Positions 29,218 to 36,395 of a stretch of 64,000 bases of DNA are shown piece by piece (position 1 is the first letter of the stretch; the number at the start of each line of letters is the position of its first letter). Under the pieces are notes generated by a model that did not search any database, was not told where the DNA came from, and saw only the letters and a list, made by a program, of their open reading frames with translations. The translations under genes were made by a program, and so were the position numbers. The stretch spans positions 711,501-775,500 of the forward strand of contig NZ_CP023317.1 in NCBI RefSeq assembly GCF_009497655.1, written 5' to 3'. The stretch comes from Priestia megaterium (GTDB taxonomy: Bacteria; Bacillota; Bacilli; Bacillales; Bacillaceae_H).

Positions 29218-29315
29218 ATTTCATTAATGCCACTAAGCCTAACGCTTTAATGGAAATTGAAAAAAAACAGAAAGAATGATAGATTACAAATAAAGACATT
29301 TATTCCTATTGTTTT

Positions 29316-29345
29316 AGGGTTGTTACTGATGAAGCAGGCAAAACC
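29316..29345 (+). promoter_or_regulatory. Ribonucleic antiterminator (RAT) of BglG/LicT type
   Basis: The 30-base stretch runs AGGGTTGTTACTGATG then AAGCAGGCAAAACCT. It keeps the conserved parts of RAT elements bound by PRD antiterminators such as LicT and SacY (GGxTTGTTACTG...CAGGCAAAACCT). Its 3' end overlaps the first bases of the terminator that follows, so the two structures are mutually exclusive, as in bglPH or sacB leaders. Confidence 0.8.
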
Positions 29346-29400
29346 TAAGCTGCAAGGACAGAAAAGGTAGTTTCTGTTTGTTGCTGTTTAGGTATTTTTT
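29341..29400 (+). terminator. Conditional terminator overlapping the RAT, before licR
   Basis: ACCTAA, GCAA and ACAGAAA on the left pair with TTTCTGT, TTGC and TTAGGT on the right, then ATTTTTT. The left arm shares AAACCT with the RAT. It ends 76 bases before the licR start. Confidence 0.8.
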
Positions 29401-29476
29401 GCTTTTGTTTAAAATAACCAGCTCTTTTAATTTATTTTATAAAGGGGAAATCTTCTGAGAATGGAGAGAAACAAAC

Positions 29477-31426
29477 ATGCTTAATTCAAGAATGATCGTC
29501 ATATTAAGAGAACTAATGTCCGTACAGTCTACATTATCAACCGTTACGAGCGAATATTTAGCAACAGTAAATCAGGTATCTTCTCGAACTATTCGAACGG
29601 ATATAAAACAGTTAGATGACATGTTGTCTCAGTACGGGGCCAAAATTAAATCAGCTCGAGGGACGGGATATGAACTTAGCGTTTTAGATGAAAAACAATT
29701 TCATCAGCTATTAAAAGAACTTTCGGCTAATCAATTATTTGATTCAACTTCTATTCCAACCGTTCCTGATGACCGCGTGCATTATTTAATTAAAAGACTG
29801 CTGCTAGCAGACGGATATTTGAAGCTCGAAGATTTAGCAGACGAGTTATATATTAGCAAATCAACGGTTCAAAACGATTTAAGAGATGTTAAAAAACAGC
29901 TGTGTAAGTATGATATTCTTTTAGAAAAACGTCCTAACTATGGCTTGAAAGCTAAAGGGGACGAAATGAAAATGAGATTTTGTATGTCTGAGTACATATT
30001 TAACCGAAAAGATAAAGAAGTAGATATGGTATACAATGAAATATCCATCCTGCCCCAAGAATCAATCTTAACGATTAAAGCCCACATTTTAAATCAAATA
30101 AAACGATACAATATTATGGTTTCAGATATTGGATTAAATAATTTAATCATTCATTTAGCAATAGCTTGTAAGCGAATACAAGAAGAAAATTTTATCTCTT
30201 TGTATTCAGAAGACTTGCTTGAAATTATGGAGCATAAAGAATATGAAGTAGCAGCTGAAATTGTGAGGGAAATTGAAAAGGCATTCAAGATTCGTTTTCC
30301 GAAATCAGAAACAGCGTATATCGCCATTCATTTGCTAGGTACAAAAATGCTCAACAGTAGCAATCATGAAGACAAAGAAGTGAAGCAGTTTATTGCCGCA
30401 GATATTTATGAATTAACAGCGGCTATATTAGAAGCAATTGAAAAAGAGCTTCATTTAGGAATTAGTGAAGATTCAGAGTTGATTCTTGGCATGAGTTTGC
30501 ATTTGAAACCGGCTATCAACCGCTATAAATATGGAATGAATCTGCGAAACCCGATGCTTGAAGGAATTAAGAGTCATTACCCTCTTGCTTTTGAAGCTGG
30601 AATTATTGCCGGGAAGGTTTTAAAAAATCGCCTTGAAATTGACATGCATGAAACGGAAATTGGCTATTTAGCTTTACATATTGGAGGGGCCATTGAACGT
30701 CGGAAAATTATCAATCAGCCTAAGCGCTGTTTGATTGTATGCGCATCGGGAGTAGGGAGTGCCAAGCTATTATCATATAAGCTGCAGGCTACGTTTGGAT
30801 TAAATCTTACTATTTTAGGAACAACTCAGTATTATAAGCTTCACCAAATGTCGCTGCACTCTTTAGATTTTATTGTTAGTACCATTCCAATTCCAGAGGA
30901 TCTTCCTGTTCCTGTAGTACAAGTAAGTACAATTCTAGGAAACAATGATTTTAAAAAAATTGAATGTTTAATGAAGAATAAACCGCAGTCTTCGTTAGAA
31001 TACACGAAAAAAGAATTAGTATATTTACAGCAAGAATTTCAAACAAGAGAAGAAGTGCTTCATTTTTTAGGAGAGAAATTAACTCATCTAGGACTAGTTC
31101 CTTTTCAATTTATAGAATCTGTTTTTGAAAGAGAAGCTGCATCCCCAACAAGTTTTGGCAATCTCGTTGCGATTCCGCATCCTATGGTTCCTCAAACCGA
31201 TACGACGTTTTGGGCCATTTGCACGTTAAAAAAACCGATTATGTGGGAAGGAAATCTTGTGCAATTTATTTGTCTTTTAAGTGTAAAAGCGAATAATCAA
31301 GGCGATTTGCAGAAGATGTACAGTTTGTTGGTTCGCGTTGTGGATGACAAGCAGGTCGTGCAGCGCTTAGTAAAGTGCAAGGATTATGAGGAGTTTATAG
31401 AGGTATTTATGAAAAATATTAGATAA
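29477..31426 (+). CDS. licR: PRD-containing transcriptional activator LicR
   Basis: 649 aa, close to B. subtilis LicR (641). Domain order: HTH_11 (about 5-60), Mga-type HTH (about 85-145), two PRD domains (about 180-280 and 300-400), an EIIB-like domain with CLIVCASGVGSAK (about 412) and an EIIA domain (about 510-645) with LVAIPHPM (about 560). It activates licBCAH in response to PTS phosphorylation and lichenan-derived oligosaccharides. In this genome the gene itself is preceded by a RAT/terminator, which is not its usual arrangement. Confidence 0.92.
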   Translation: MLNSRMIVILRELMSVQSTLSTVTSEYLATVNQVSSRTIRTDIKQLDDMLSQYGAKIKSARGTGYELSVLDEKQFHQLLKELSANQLFDSTSIPTVPDDRVHYLIKRLLLADGYLKLEDLADELYISKSTVQNDLRDVKKQLCKYDILLEKRPNYGLKAKGDEMKMRFCMSEYIFNRKDKEVDMVYNEISILPQESILTIKAHILNQIKRYNIMVSDIGLNNLIIHLAIACKRIQEENFISLYSEDLLEIMEHKEYEVAAEIVREIEKAFKIRFPKSETAYIAIHLLGTKMLNSSNHEDKEVKQFIAADIYELTAAILEAIEKELHLGISEDSELILGMSLHLKPAINRYKYGMNLRNPMLEGIKSHYPLAFEAGIIAGKVLKNRLEIDMHETEIGYLALHIGGAIERRKIINQPKRCLIVCASGVGSAKLLSYKLQATFGLNLTILGTTQYYKLHQMSLHSLDFIVSTIPIPEDLPVPVVQVSTILGNNDFKKIECLMKNKPQSSLEYTKKELVYLQQEFQTREEVLHFLGEKLTHLGLVPFQFIESVFEREAASPTSFGNLVAIPHPMVPQTDTTFWAICTLKKPIMWEGNLVQFICLLSVKANNQGDLQKMYSLLVRVVDDKQVVQRLVKCKDYEEFIEVFMKNIR

Positions 31427-31476: not shown

Positions 31477-31530
31477 TTTTTCCGTTACTAACGGAAAAAG
31501 GTTGTGTATAAATGTAAGCGCTTTTATTTT
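31477..31530 (+). promoter_or_regulatory. licB promoter: LicR operator candidate and cre box
   Basis: TTTTTCCGTTA-C-TAACGGAAAAA (31477-31499) is a perfect 23-bp palindrome placed directly before a weak -35 (TTGTGT, 31502), the position expected for an activator such as LicR. TGTAAGCGCTTTTA (31513) matches cre at 13 of 14 positions and overlaps the -10 region. Confidence 0.65.
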
Positions 31531-31585: not shown

Positions 31586-31891
31586 ATGAATATTCTATTA
31601 TGTTGTGCAGCTGGAATGTCTACAAGTTTACTAGTAACAAAAATGGAAAAAAGTGCTCAGGACCAAAGCACGGAGTATAAAATTTGGGCAGTTCCTGGTG
31701 ACTCTGTTCGCAATCATATTGATCAAGCAGATGTACTGTTATTAGGACCTCAAGTGCGCTACTTGCTGCCGCAGCTTAAGAAGCTAGGTGAAGAAAAAGG
31801 AGTGCCAGTTGACGTTATAAATCCTGTTCACTACGGAACGTGTAATGGAGAACAAGTGTTAAAATTTGCAGCTCAACTAGTTTCAAAATAG
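31586..31891 (+). CDS. licB: PTS lichenan/cellobiose-type EIIB component
   Basis: 101 aa. The phosphocysteine loop [14 protein letters not shown] (Cys about 5-6) and later [13 protein letters not shown] (about 52) define the PTS lactose/cellobiose EIIB family. It passes phosphate from LicA to the sugar bound by LicC. Length matches B. subtilis LicB (102). First gene of licBCAH. Confidence 0.92.
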
Positions 31892-31904
31892 GAGTGTGGA
31901 CTAC

Positions 31905-33263
31905 ATGAGCAAATTTAATAGTATGCTTGAAAGCAAAGTAATGCCTATCGCCGGAAAAATGGCAGGTCAACGCCATTTACAAGCACTTCGAGACGGTATT
32001 GTTCTAACAATGCCGCTCATTATTATCGGTTCCGTATTTTTAATACTATCGAATTTACCGATACCAGGTTACAACGACTTTATGGCAGGGATTTTCGGAA
32101 AAGAATGGGCCACAAAAATGGCGTATCCAGTTGGAGCTACATTCGATATTATGGCGCTGCTTGCTTGTTTCGGAATAGCCTATCGATTAGCTGAAAAATA
32201 TGGAGTAGACGCTTTGTCCGCAGGTGCTATTTCACTTGCTGCCTTTTTACTTGCTACTCCGTATAAAGTGTCGTTTCTCCCAAGCGGCGCTAAAGAAGCT
32301 ATTTTAGTAGACGGCGGAATTCCAACCGCTTTAATGGGAAGTAAAGGACTTTTCGTAGCAATGATTGTCGCGATTCTCTCTACGGAAATTTACAGATGGT
32401 TTATTCAAAAAGATATTGTCATCAAGATGCCTGATGGAGTTCCACCCGCTGTTGGAAAATCGTTTGCCGCTCTTATTCCTGGCTTCACGGTAATAGCATT
32501 TATTTGGATTTTACGTTTGTTAGTAGAACAAACGCATTTTGGAAGTCTGCATAATATCGTTGGAGAATTGCTTGGAAAGCCTTTAGGTGTGTTAGGCGGC
32601 AGTTTAGGCGGTACGCTAGTTGCCGAGCTTGTTATTATGCTCATGTGGTCTTGTGGACTTCATGGAGCGAATATTGTCGGTGGAATTATGGCTCCAATTT
32701 GGTATGGAGCTATGGATGAAAACAGAATTGCATTTGCTAACCATGAAGTATTACCCAATATTTTCACACAGCAGTTCTTTGACATTTGGATTAATATCGG
32801 AGGCAGCGGAGCGACACTAGCTCTAGTCGTTGCCATGATTTTAAAAGCGCGCAGTCAACAAATGAAGCAGCTTGGTAAATTAGGAATAGGGCCAGCTCTT
32901 TTTAATATCAATGAGCCGATTATCTTTGGACTTCCGATGGTGATGAATCCAATGATGCTTATTCCGTTTATTATTACCCCTCTTGTGACGGTAGTAGCAA
33001 CCTATATTGCCATGTCGACAGGACTGGTAGCAAAACCAGCAGGTATTGCGGTTCCTTGGACCATGCCTCCGATTATTTCTGGCTATTTGGCCACAGGAGG
33101 AAAATTATCGGGTGCAGTTATGCAAGCTATTAACATCGGCATTTCTGTTTGCATTTATTATCCTTTCTTTAGAATGTGGGATAAACAAAAATTCACTGAA
33201 GAACATGGTATACAGCCTGCAGTTGAAGGGGTACCAAGTGATACACAGAAAGATATTGTGTGA
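31905..33263 (+). CDS. licC: PTS lichenan/cellobiose-type EIIC permease
   Basis: 452 aa from ATG 31905, preceded by GGAG; the GTG at 31896 is adjacent to that site and unlikely. It has about ten membrane helices and cellobiose-family EIIC motifs (LRDGIVLTMPLIIIGSVF near 30; GIGPALFNINEPIIFGLP near 330, with the NEP substrate loop). It forms the membrane channel for beta-glucosides. Length equals B. subtilis LicC (452). Confidence 0.92.
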   Translation: MSKFNSMLESKVMPIAGKMAGQRHLQALRDGIVLTMPLIIIGSVFLILSNLPIPGYNDFMAGIFGKEWATKMAYPVGATFDIMALLACFGIAYRLAEKYGVDALSAGAISLAAFLLATPYKVSFLPSGAKEAILVDGGIPTALMGSKGLFVAMIVAILSTEIYRWFIQKDIVIKMPDGVPPAVGKSFAALIPGFTVIAFIWILRLLVEQTHFGSLHNIVGELLGKPLGVLGGSLGGTLVAELVIMLMWSCGLHGANIVGGIMAPIWYGAMDENRIAFANHEVLPNIFTQQFFDIWINIGGSGATLALVVAMILKARSQQMKQLGKLGIGPALFNINEPIIFGLPMVMNPMMLIPFIITPLVTVVATYIAMSTGLVAKPAGIAVPWTMPPIISGYLATGGKLSGAVMQAINIGISVCIYYPFFRMWDKQKFTEEHGIQPAVEGVPSDTQKDIV

Positions 33264-33276
33264 GGAGGGATAAAGA

Positions 33277-33606
33277 ATGGAAAGCGTTCAAGAATATATT
33301 TTTAAATTAATCTTACACGGTGGAAACGGCAGAAGTTCAGCAATGGAAGCGATAGCGGCTGCCAAAAAGGGAGATTTTTCAGAAGCGCGTGAAAAGCTTA
33401 CACAAGCTTCTGAAGAATTAAATGCTGCTCATCATATCCAAACGTCGTTAATTCAAGGAGAAATTAGAGGGGATAGCACAGAAATTTCTCTGCTCATGAT
33501 TCATGCTCAAGATCATTTAATGAATGCGATGACGGTAAAAGAAATGGCTACTGAATTTGTAGATTTATATGAAGCAATCAAAATTTCTGGGGGGATTACA
33601 TTATGA
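33277..33606 (+). CDS. licA: PTS lichenan/cellobiose-type EIIA component
   Basis: 109 aa helical bundle. The phosphorylation site His lies in [15 protein letters not shown] (about 70-84). [19 protein letters not shown] (about 17) is typical of the lactose/cellobiose EIIA family. It is 13 bases after licC, with GGAGGG upstream, and overlaps licH by 4 bases (ATGA). Confidence 0.92.
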
Positions 33607-34931
33607 CAAAAGGTATTAAAATTGTAACGATTGGCGGAGGTTCAAGCTATACGCCTGAACTAATAGAAGGGTTTATTAAACGATATGATGAACTTCCAGT
33701 TCGAGAACTGTGGCTAGTAGACGTGGAAGAAGGAAAAGAAAAATTAGAGATTGTTGGAAATTTAGCGAAGAGAATGGTGAAAAAATCAGGTTTGCCAATC
33801 GAGGTTCATTTAACGTTAAATCGAAGAGAAGCACTAAAAGATGCGGATTTCGTAACAACTCAATTTCGCGTTGGCTTGTTAGATGCACGAGCGAAAGATG
33901 AAAGAATCCCGCTTAAATACGGGGTGCTCGGTCAAGAAACAAACGGACCGGGAGGATTATTTAAAGGACTTCGCACCATTCCCGTTATTTTAGATATCTG
34001 CCGTGACATTGAAGAGTTATGTCCAGAAGCTTGGCTGATTAACTTCACAAATCCTGCTGGCATGGTAACAGAAGCTGTGCTTCGCTATAGTAACATTAAA
34101 AAGATTGTAGGACTTTGTAATGTGCCAATCGGAATGGAAATGGGGATTGCTAAGCTGCTTGATGTAGACCACTCTCGCATTCGAATTGATTTTGCTGGTT
34201 TAAATCACATGGTCTACGGATTAGATGTATATGTAGATGGTGTAAGTGTCAAAGATCAAGTTATTGATTTATTGAGTGATCCAACTAACAGCAGCTTTGT
34301 GAAAAATGTAGCAGGACTTGGATGGGAGCCAGAATTCACAAAAGCGCTAAATGCGTTAACGTGTCCATATCACATGTACTATTATAAAACGCGTGAAATG
34401 GTAGAAAAAGAGCTTGTTAATTATGAAAAAGGTGAAACCAGAGCAGAAGTCGTGAAACAGTTGGAAAAAGAGCTGTTTGAACTGTACAAAGATCCTAACC
34501 TAGACATTAAACCGCCTCAATTGGAACAGCGCGGAGGTGCTTATTATAGTGATGCAGCGGTTCGATTGATTACATCCATTTATACGGATAAAGGCGATAT
34601 TCAACCTGTAAACACAGTGAACAATGGCGCTATTGCAAGCATTCCAGCTGATTCTGCTGTAGAAGTAAGCTGTATCATTACAAAAGATGGTCCAAAGCCA
34701 ATTTCAGTCGGCGATCTTCCCGTACCTGTCCGCGGTCTTGTTCAAACCATTAAGTCATTTGAGCGGATTGCAGCTGAAGCAGCAGTGACAGGAGATTATG
34801 ACAAAGCTATTTTAGCATTAACCATTAATCCTCTTGTTGCTTCTGATAAACTAGCTAAACAAATCGTCGATGAGATGTTAGAAGCTCATAAAGATTACTT
34901 GCCTCAATTTTTTAAAACGGTTCAAGCTTAA
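33603..34931 (+). CDS. licH: 6-phospho-beta-glucosidase (GH4)
   Basis: 442 aa, same length as B. subtilis LicH. It is an NAD- and metal-dependent GH4 enzyme: N-terminal [18 protein letters not shown] (about 7-24), NFTNPAGM (about 145), CNVPIGM (about 168), GLNHMVYG (about 196). It hydrolyses phosphorylated beta-glucosides imported by LicBCA. The ATG overlaps the licA stop, showing tight coupling. Confidence 0.93.
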
Positions 34932-35045: not shown

Positions 35046-36395
35046 GTGAATAGGAAGAGAGAAGAACTAAATAGTATTGATGAAATAGCGGATGGAGAAT
35101 TAAAAACTATTTTTGATATTTCTCATGATGCTATTTATATGTCTGATGGAGAAGGAAGAACATTAAAGGTAAGTTCGGGGTGTGAAAGGATATGGGGATA
35201 CAAGGAAACAGAGTTGCTTGGAAAAACGGTTTATGAGTTAGAAAAAGAGGGGGCATACAGTCCATCGATTACGAGGCTTGTGTTAGAAAAGAAAGAAAAA
35301 GTATCAATGATTCAAGTTACAAAGTTGGGAAGGCGATTAAAAGTAATAGGTGCACCAATAAAAAATACGAAGGGGGACATTATTCGAGTCGTTAATATTT
35401 CAAAAGATATTACGGAACAGAACCAGTCTTTACAAAACGAAAAAAAAATTGCTCCATTTGAACATCTTCCTCAGGGTCAGATGGAAAGGTTGAATAACAA
35501 AAAGGTAAAGCAGATGTACATTTTGAGCGAAAACGAAGAAATGAAAACAGCGGTTTCTAGAGCTGAGAGAGCAGCTTTAGTAGAATCTAGTGTGTTAATC
35601 CATGGAGAAAGTGGAGTTGGTAAAGAAACCATGGCATATTTCATTCACGAGCGTAGTCCACGGAACAAAGGGCCGTTTGTAACAGTTCGTTGTGGTGCAA
35701 TTTTATTATCTAATATAGAAAAGGAGATTTTTGGGCAAGGGGAGGGAATAGGAGCAATTGAAAAAGCCGGCGGCGGTACGGTTTTTTTAGATGAAATTGA
35801 TTTATTGCCTTTGCCACTACAGCTGAAGTTATCTTACCTCGTAGAACAGCAATTAACATCCTCATATACTAGTGCTCGGTTTATTACGGGGACTTCAACT
35901 AATTTAACGGAAAGTATAAAAATAGGGAAATTTAGAAAAGAGCTGTATTATCAGCTAAGTATTATCCCTATTCAAATACCTCCGCTTCGAAACAGAAAAG
36001 AAGATATTATTCCATTGACGTTACATTTTTTAGAGAAAATTAATTTCTTGTATGAAAGTAAGAAAAAGCTACATCCTAGGCTGTTGAAAAAACTACAAAA
36101 CTACTACAGCTGGCCAGGAAATGTTCGAGAGCTTAAAGCGTTAGTAGAGCGATTATTTGTATTAACAGAAGGAGAGTGGATTCAAGAAGAACAGTTAATG
36201 AGTGACATACTAGTAAGTGCAAAAAATGAAAAGAAAATTGAAATTCATGAGCTAATGCCTTTAAAAGCCGCGGTTCATTTAGTAGAACAAGAATTGCTGA
36301 GAAAGGCTAAGAAGAAATATAAATCCACTACACAAATAGCAAGAGCGCTGGGCGTTAATCAGTCTACAATTAGTAGGAAGCTAAGCCGCTTTTAA
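35046..36395 (+). CDS. PAS + AAA+ enhancer-binding-type regulator lacking the GAFTGA loop
   Basis: 449 aa from GTG 35046 (site AGGGGGG). Residues about 15-125 are a PAS domain. Residues about 160-375 are a sigma-54-interaction-type AAA+ domain with Walker A GESGVGKE, Walker B GGTVFLDEID and the FRKELYYQLS arginine-finger region. YSWPGNVRELKALVERL (about 358) follows, and a Fis-type HTH (TTQIARALGVNQSTISRKL) ends the protein. Between EIFGQ and GGGTVF only about 12 residues are left and the GAFTGA sigma-54 contact loop is absent. It probably acts on sigma-A promoters, like TyrR, or as a repressor. The neighbouring transporter and amidase are the likely targets. Confidence 0.82.
   Translation: MNRKREELNSIDEIADGELKTIFDISHDAIYMSDGEGRTLKVSSGCERIWGYKETELLGKTVYELEKEGAYSPSITRLVLEKKEKVSMIQVTKLGRRLKVIGAPIKNTKGDIIRVVNISKDITEQNQSLQNEKKIAPFEHLPQGQMERLNNKKVKQMYILSENEEMKTAVSRAERAALVESSVLIHGESGVGKETMAYFIHERSPRNKGPFVTVRCGAILLSNIEKEIFGQGEGIGAIEKAGGGTVFLDEIDLLPLPLQLKLSYLVEQQLTSSYTSARFITGTSTNLTESIKIGKFRKELYYQLSIIPIQIPPLRNRKEDIIPLTLHFLEKINFLYESKKKLHPRLLKKLQNYYSWPGNVRELKALVERLFVLTEGEWIQEEQLMSDILVSAKNEKKIEIHELMPLKAAVHLVEQELLRKAKKKYKSTTQIARALGVNQSTISRKLSRF

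Follow-up and report, generated by a model that had tools for sequence, protein, structure and literature searches.

A predicted LicT-class antitermination switch before licR in Priestia megaterium, with its apparent cognate absent from the genome and plasmid-borne in other strains

To our knowledge, ribonucleic antiterminator (RAT) switches act on genes for sugar permeases, hydrolases or antiterminators, and licR of Bacillus subtilis has no RAT. The LicT/RAT system of Bacillus bglPH (BglG/SacY family) shares with the locus described here the RAT sequence class and a leader in which RAT and terminator overlap. It differs in that the presumed target here is the gene of a DNA-binding PRD activator instead of one for a permease, a hydrolase or the antiterminator itself, and in that LicT is missing from the genome. 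B. subtilis LicR is described as activating licBCAH (PMC1489936); a PRD activator with a linked licBCAH operon was also found here, with the difference that a RAT lies before licR. The bgl operon of Clostridium acetobutylicum is under BglG-RAT control, with RATs before bglG and bglT (PMC12628678). A RAT-terminator switch before beta-glucoside genes is common to both, but the RATs described there do not precede the regulator of another operon. Searches of the open-licence PubMed Central literature returned no report of a RAT before licR or any other PRD activator gene.

The window, a 64,000-nucleotide stretch of the soil bacterium P. megaterium (NZ_CP023317.1, positions 711,501 to 775,500), carries in the licR leader a BglG-family RAT at 29316 to 29346 (+ strand) overlapping an intrinsic terminator. 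An earlier note on this DNA had described a 30-base RAT overlapping a strong terminator that ends 76 bases before licR. The location and the overlap were borne out, as was the distance (29400 is 76 bases 5′ of the licR ATG at 29477), but the RAT spans 31 bases once a flanking base at either end is included. The features of the leader are as follows.

29257 to 29285, + strand: putative sigma-A promoter of licR (TTGAAA, 17, TAGATT, with TG before the −10)
29316 to 29346, + strand: RAT, LicT class (G3, T8, A26); 0 mismatches, and 0 matches in shuffles and reversed control
29343 to 29400, + strand: intrinsic terminator overlapping the RAT 3′ arm; stem 29343 to 29393, then a T-rich tail

Positions 29317 to 29345 (GGGTTGTTACTGATGAAGCAGGCAAAACC) matched the RAT consensus, GGNTTGTTACTGNNNNNNCAGGCAARACC, with 0 mismatches. 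This was the sole match to the RAT pattern in the window, and 100 shuffles gave 0 matches at ≤3 mismatches. At the same threshold the whole genome (5,243,446 bases, 3 contigs) contained 2 matches, and a reversed-pattern control gave 0. The main scans used ≤3 mismatches and a 6-base loop, those of order-level licR leaders ≤5 mismatches and a 6-base loop, and those of named LicR loci one core mismatch and loops of 4 to 9 bases; such patterns miss divergent RATs, for example the one before ptsG or a short one before plasmid bglP. An Rfam gathering search of the window returned tRNA only and no RAT family, which is not evidence against the RAT. The element has conserved arms and two asymmetric internal loops, in a layout that we presume to be that of RATs, and it folds with those pairs enforced.

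In the predicted fold of the terminator hairpin, 29343 to 29364 pair with 29371 to 29393, followed by ATTTTTTG. The RAT and terminator folds are predicted to be mutually exclusive, because A29343, C29344 and C29345 belong to both the RAT and the terminator stem. Folding of the leader, a check the earlier note had proposed, gave −33.8 kcal/mol for 29310 to 29412 (z of −3.75, with 0 shuffles equally stable) and −23.1 kcal/mol for the same 103 bases with the RAT enforced, so that the terminator fold is better by ∼10.7 kcal/mol. The terminator is, in this model, the more stable fold of the leader without protein. It was not among the sites of a consensus terminator scan, probably because its stem is interrupted. 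The leader likely places licR under antitermination control.

The putative promoter scored 9/12 in a consensus scan that is weak overall (6 sites versus 9.0 expected in shuffles). It was the sole + strand promoter-like site between 29180 and licR and lies upstream of the RAT, and the licR transcript would start near 29292; a search of the literature for start-site maps found none titled for P. megaterium. A promoter between 29400 and 29477 would bypass the RAT-terminator altogether, and this region is A+T-rich. However, it holds no + strand promoter-like site, and 12/76 of its sites vary among five Priestia genomes, which makes such a bypass the least probable of the explanations considered. 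The promoter region (29257 to 29315) varied at 4/59 sites in the same genomes.

The leader is followed by a LicR-type activator gene and a linked operon in the order licR-licBCAH:

29477 to 31426, + strand: licR, LicR-type activator, 649 amino acids; HTH_11/Mga, two PRDs and EIIA (PTS_EIIA_2) by Pfam
31477 to 31499, no strand assigned: perfect 23-bp palindrome TTTTTCCGTTACTAACGGAAAAA, an inverted repeat before licB; putative LicR operator
31513 to 31526, + strand: putative CcpA cre site TGTAAGCGCTTTTA, read from the sequence
31586 to 31891, + strand: licB, EIIB of the lactose/cellobiose type (TIGR00853, 123.7 bits; cut-off, 110)
31896 to 33263, + strand: licC, cellobiose EIIC (TIGR00359, 638 bits; cut-off, 434.45)
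33277 to 33606, + strand: licA, EIIA of the lactose/cellobiose type (PF02255, 132.2 bits; cut-off, 27)
33603 to 34931, + strand: licH, GH4 glycosidase (PF02056 and PF11975)

The name LicR is based on domains and gene order, as the product reached no curated NCBIfam cut-off (the best model, AcpB/EbpR/MafR, gave 114.1 of 130 bits). Pfam found neither a CAT domain nor an EIIB-like domain in it. The product of licH is probably a 6-phospho-beta-glucosidase, a specificity deduced from the operon; its best NCBIfam model, alpha-galactosidase, fell below cut-off. The gene directly 3′ of licH, at 35046 to 36395, encodes a PAS-domain protein similar to sigma-54-dependent activators. The gap between licR and licB contains a terminator-like hairpin in addition to the palindrome, which has one exact copy in the genome. 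Two further palindrome-like sites, with 2 and 3 mismatches, are no evidence of additional operators, because a reversed control also gave matches (2 per strand). At the 28 named loci, the palindrome was present 3′ of licR exactly in P. aryabhattai, with 4 to 5 mismatches in 4 and with 6 mismatches in 5, and was absent from 18. We infer that LicR acts at this palindrome; the probable arrangement of 31477 to 31526 is a putative LicR operator followed by a putative CcpA site.

LicR is a PRD activator with two PRDs, as the earlier note had it, and as no CAT domain was found in it, the RAT would need a separate antiterminator, as had also been argued. The earlier note had held that a second PRD protein encoded elsewhere seems to be needed, and had proposed a search for a licT/bglG homologue. 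A Pfam CAT_RBD search of the genome identified two proteins only, GlcT and a SacT-type protein; two antiterminators of the RAT-binding family are thus encoded, but the matching LicT was not found in the genome, including near any bgl operon. GlcT scored 400.9 bits (NCBIfam cut-off, 320), and a GlcT-class RAT separates its gene from ptsG, which follows. Since it is present in all five RAT-bearing genomes of the genus, GlcT could be supposed to read the licR RAT and so to link licR to glucose. The ptsG RAT (ACGTGTTACTGATACGATCAGGCATGAGTGAG), read by eye because it falls outside the RAT pattern, is nevertheless of another class, differing from the licR RAT in lower-stem and internal-loop bases, and induction by glucose would presumably oppose the putative cre before licB. 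Reading by GlcT is therefore highly unlikely.

The gene for the SacT-type protein is flanked by an EIIA gene and a sucrose-type EIIBC gene, the latter preceded by the second pattern RAT of the genome. This stretch (locus L005, 5552 to 8481) runs EIIA gene, sacT-type gene, RAT, sucrose EIIBC gene, a small open reading frame (ORF) and a YidC-like ORF, with no sucrase gene there. The name SacT is assigned from the neighboring sucrose EIIBC gene and from the B. subtilis sacP RAT. A RAT with a SacT-type gene on one side and a sucrose EIIBC gene on the other is shared with the SacT/RAT system of B. subtilis sacPA; this RAT differs from the licR RAT at bases 8 and 26. With 297.7 bits against an NCBIfam LicT cut-off of 300, the SacT-type protein could be mislabelled LicT by score; that identity was rejected, as trees place it apart from LicT. 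In two trees it fell in a starred SacT/SacY clade distinct from that of LicT (98/96 and 99/96); its grouping within that clade with SacT-type proteins of Bacillus sonorensis, Bacillus glycinifermentans and Bacillus swezeyi (91/85 and 92/86) had support too low for a star. These trees exclude Bglyc_L168, Bson_L166 and Bswe_L164 (motif filter), and the SacT of G004 is also absent from them.

RAT bases 3, 8 and 26 probably matter for specificity. Positions 8 and 26 were tabulated for RATs within ∼1.7 kb of an antiterminator gene. RATs linked to SacT-type genes carried G8/G26 in 12/12 cases (nine genomes of the genus, this one included, and three Bacillus; the tree contains 11 of the 12 proteins), and those linked to SacY-like genes, a label that we presume to apply, carried T8/G26 in 3/3. 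T8/A26 was found in all 10 RATs linked to the LicT clade and in all four linked to plasmid LicT-like genes (three distinct leaders). Six RATs with no tree-placed antiterminator beside them were left uncounted, namely three in Ectobacillus funiculus and one in B. glycinifermentans (all T8/A26), one in B. sonorensis (T8/G26) and one in G003 (T8/G26, near a divergent antiterminator). The licR RAT, with T8/A26 and G3, agrees with the LicT class and not with the G8/G26 of SacT targets. The reader that it calls for is therefore LicT, a protein not encoded in this genome. G3 occurred in only 1/21 RATs of eight other genomes searched.

A LicT-class RAT in a genome without LicT leaves two readings: the first step of the cascade is accessory, or the RAT is read by SacT. 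In the latter case, SacT of the sucrose phosphotransferase system (PTS) operon would be the regular licR antiterminator in Priestia, the RAT having been captured so that sucrose, or the substrate of the EIIA-SacT-SacP system, gates licR. GlcT and SacT are present in all five RAT-bearing genomes of the genus and are the only CAT proteins in three (the window's, G001 and G006); furthermore, this genome has no RATs of the pattern other than the SacT-linked one and that of licR, and the leader is constrained even though LicT is missing from three of the five genomes. Overlap between SacT and SacY targets has been reported for B. subtilis, with conflicting results (PMC6148471), and a review attributes the prevention of cross-talk among SacT, SacY and LicT to specificity domains (PMC7430163). 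Against regular reading by SacT, the T8/A26 of the licR RAT stands opposite 12/12 SacT-linked RATs, and SacT and its RAT also occur in four genomes of the genus that have no licR. It is a possible but rather doubtful explanation, and its likelihood is not exclusive of the cascade, with which it overlaps in the part that SacT would play there.

In the window's genus, licR orthologs were present in 5/10 genomes (97 to 100% identity, uninterrupted), each preceded by the RAT; in the other five, LicR matches were ≤33% identical and there was no RAT of the licR class. Priestia endophytica, which is Priestia by NCBI name and another genus in the grouping used, has a LicR that is ∼50% identical and no RAT. 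An order-level sample of 397 genomes yielded 53 LicR copies in 50 genomes, five with a RAT and 48 without (46 scanned and two leaders read, that of G015 by eye over 320 bases). Among named LicR loci, 2/28 had a RAT, those of P. aryabhattai and E. funiculus, and the latter was the only case outside the window's genus among the leaders examined. E. funiculus encodes a LicT-clade protein. Two RATs precede a bglPH-like pair there (a pair recognized by reading and not through a family search); the licR RAT of E. funiculus is identical at 29/29 positions to the first of them and also at 29/29 to one after licT. In a LicR tree of 34 rows, which excludes L107-L112 (Clostridioides, Clostridium, Listeria), L132-L147 and L184-L204, the RAT-bearing licRs fell in one clade (95/90) together with a RAT-less copy from a Peribacillus plasmid. 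This 363-kb plasmid carries a whole licR-licBCAH operon (L218, 8001 to 13562), its licR is the nearest tree relative of Priestia licR, and no RAT was found there. Because this copy lacks the RAT, the tree needs two state changes, a gain and a loss or two gains; two independent gains are possible.

Two of the RAT-bearing genomes, G003 and G008, have extra bgl-linked antiterminators that are missing from the other three. These fell on the LicT side of the first tree, outside the starred LicT group and on very long branches, with placement unsure, and they are excluded from the second tree. Given this unsure placement, they may read the licR RAT in those genomes. Each is the divergent antiterminator of a further bgl-type operon (L209, 1175 to 5673, in G008; L210, 3869 to 8212, in G003). 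The G003 RAT begins GGCGTG, no RAT was found in the G008 bgl stretch at 5 mismatches, and the G008 antiterminator matched nothing in plasmids at ≥60%.

LicT-like genes were found on plasmids of other strains. A LicT protein query against 72,556 plasmid records identified 10 Priestia records, six of them among the matches listed, so that at least six P. megaterium plasmids carry such a gene; the proteins of five of the six listed were 86% identical to that of F20 plasmid 5. Four of these plasmids were opened, and all had licT, a beta-glucoside EIIABC gene (bglP-like) and a family 1 glycosidase gene (bglH-like) in a row, with GGGTTGTTACTGTTAAATCAGGCAAAACC before licT in 4/4 (three distinct leaders, one of them shared by F20 plasmid 3 and CK7). 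These RATs equal the licR RAT at 23/23 non-loop positions, including G3. The plasmid proteins, together with an E. funiculus and a Niallia plasmid protein, formed one group (100/99) that is sister to classical LicT and not within it. In the bglP leaders of the plasmids, a strong terminator is overlapped by a RAT-like hairpin that is shorter and divergent (GGGTTGTAACCTAACGGGCAAAACC; L214, 7833 to 7910). Searched against plasmids, the licR leader itself matched a single record, over 44 bases of a Klebsiella plasmid covering the RAT, and none in Priestia; LicR searched against phages gave 52 records, all with <60% identity. The RAT is real as a sequence feature, and its matching antiterminator is absent here and plasmid-borne elsewhere.

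Sequence constraint on the leader was assessed in the five RAT-bearing Priestia genomes, whose licR genes differ by 2.6 to 5.1% in DNA. With insertions relative to the window uncounted and 85 sites being few, the RAT and terminator varied at 3/85 sites, compared with 51/211 fourfold licR sites (Fisher p of 8.6e−6) and 9/55 sites of the following spacer (p of 0.012). Within the RAT (29317 to 29345), 1/29 sites varied, in the loop, and the non-loop bases were invariant; from 29346 to 29400, 2/55 sites varied, a one-base insertion in G001 and G008 being uncounted. The leader is conserved also in the three genomes that encode no CAT proteins besides GlcT and SacT, so its maintenance may not be due to LicT. 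Something appears to keep it, which may be an occasional plasmid LicT or SacT, or else LicT loss may be too recent to show; comparison among such close relatives does not separate these three. The same data bear on whether the leader is an orphan relic, in which LicT was lost, the terminator works, licR is expressed at a low basal level and the RAT is unregulated in this strain. The missing LicT and the plasmid-borne LicT-like genes of other strains would fit, but the non-loop RAT bases are invariant in five genomes while neighboring DNA changes, and LicR is 97 to 100% identical and uninterrupted in 5/5. A relic is accordingly unlikely, although it overlaps with the basal read-through part of the cascade.

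The explanation that we prefer, with moderate confidence, is a LicT-to-LicR cascade in one licR lineage, in which the Priestia LicT is now accessory and licR in this genome depends on weak SacT reading or basal read-through. Transcription of licR would begin at a promoter upstream of ∼29292. With no CAT-domain antiterminator on the RAT, it would stop at the terminator near 29400, as anatomy and conservation suggest, whereas a LicT-class protein, active with its beta-glucoside, would bind the RAT and allow read-through into licR. LicR would then activate licBCAH, probably via the palindrome at 31477 to 31499. The cascade may have arisen in one licR lineage (Priestia and Ectobacillus) and been lost in the Peribacillus plasmid copy, the matching LicT-like gene in Priestia being accessory and, in some P. 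megaterium strains, plasmid-borne. In a genome without LicT, such as this one, licR would be left to low-affinity reading by SacT of the sucrose system or to basal read-through; read-through into licR is expected to be low in this strain, perhaps with a weak contribution from SacT. The two-step beta-glucoside cascade that the earlier note envisaged is supported in part, as to a RAT-terminator before a LicR-type gene, the need for a separate antiterminator and the absence of the arrangement from the licR leaders examined outside the genus except in E. funiculus, but the expected LicT is not in the genome.

A RAT on the gene of a second PRD regulator would give a serial PTS-gated circuit, with an RNA step and then a DNA step. 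Because the cognate factor is missing and there are only two candidate readers, the specificity and cross-talk of the BglG family are testable here. The findings also suggest that plasmids might use antitermination to control a chromosomal regulon. It can be proposed only tentatively that an RNA switch with a plasmid-borne cognate protein gates a chromosomal transcription activator, with chromosomal SacT as a weak fallback; if true, gain or loss of licT-bglP-bglH plasmids would change the wiring of the chromosomal lichenan/cellobiose regulon through transcription termination.
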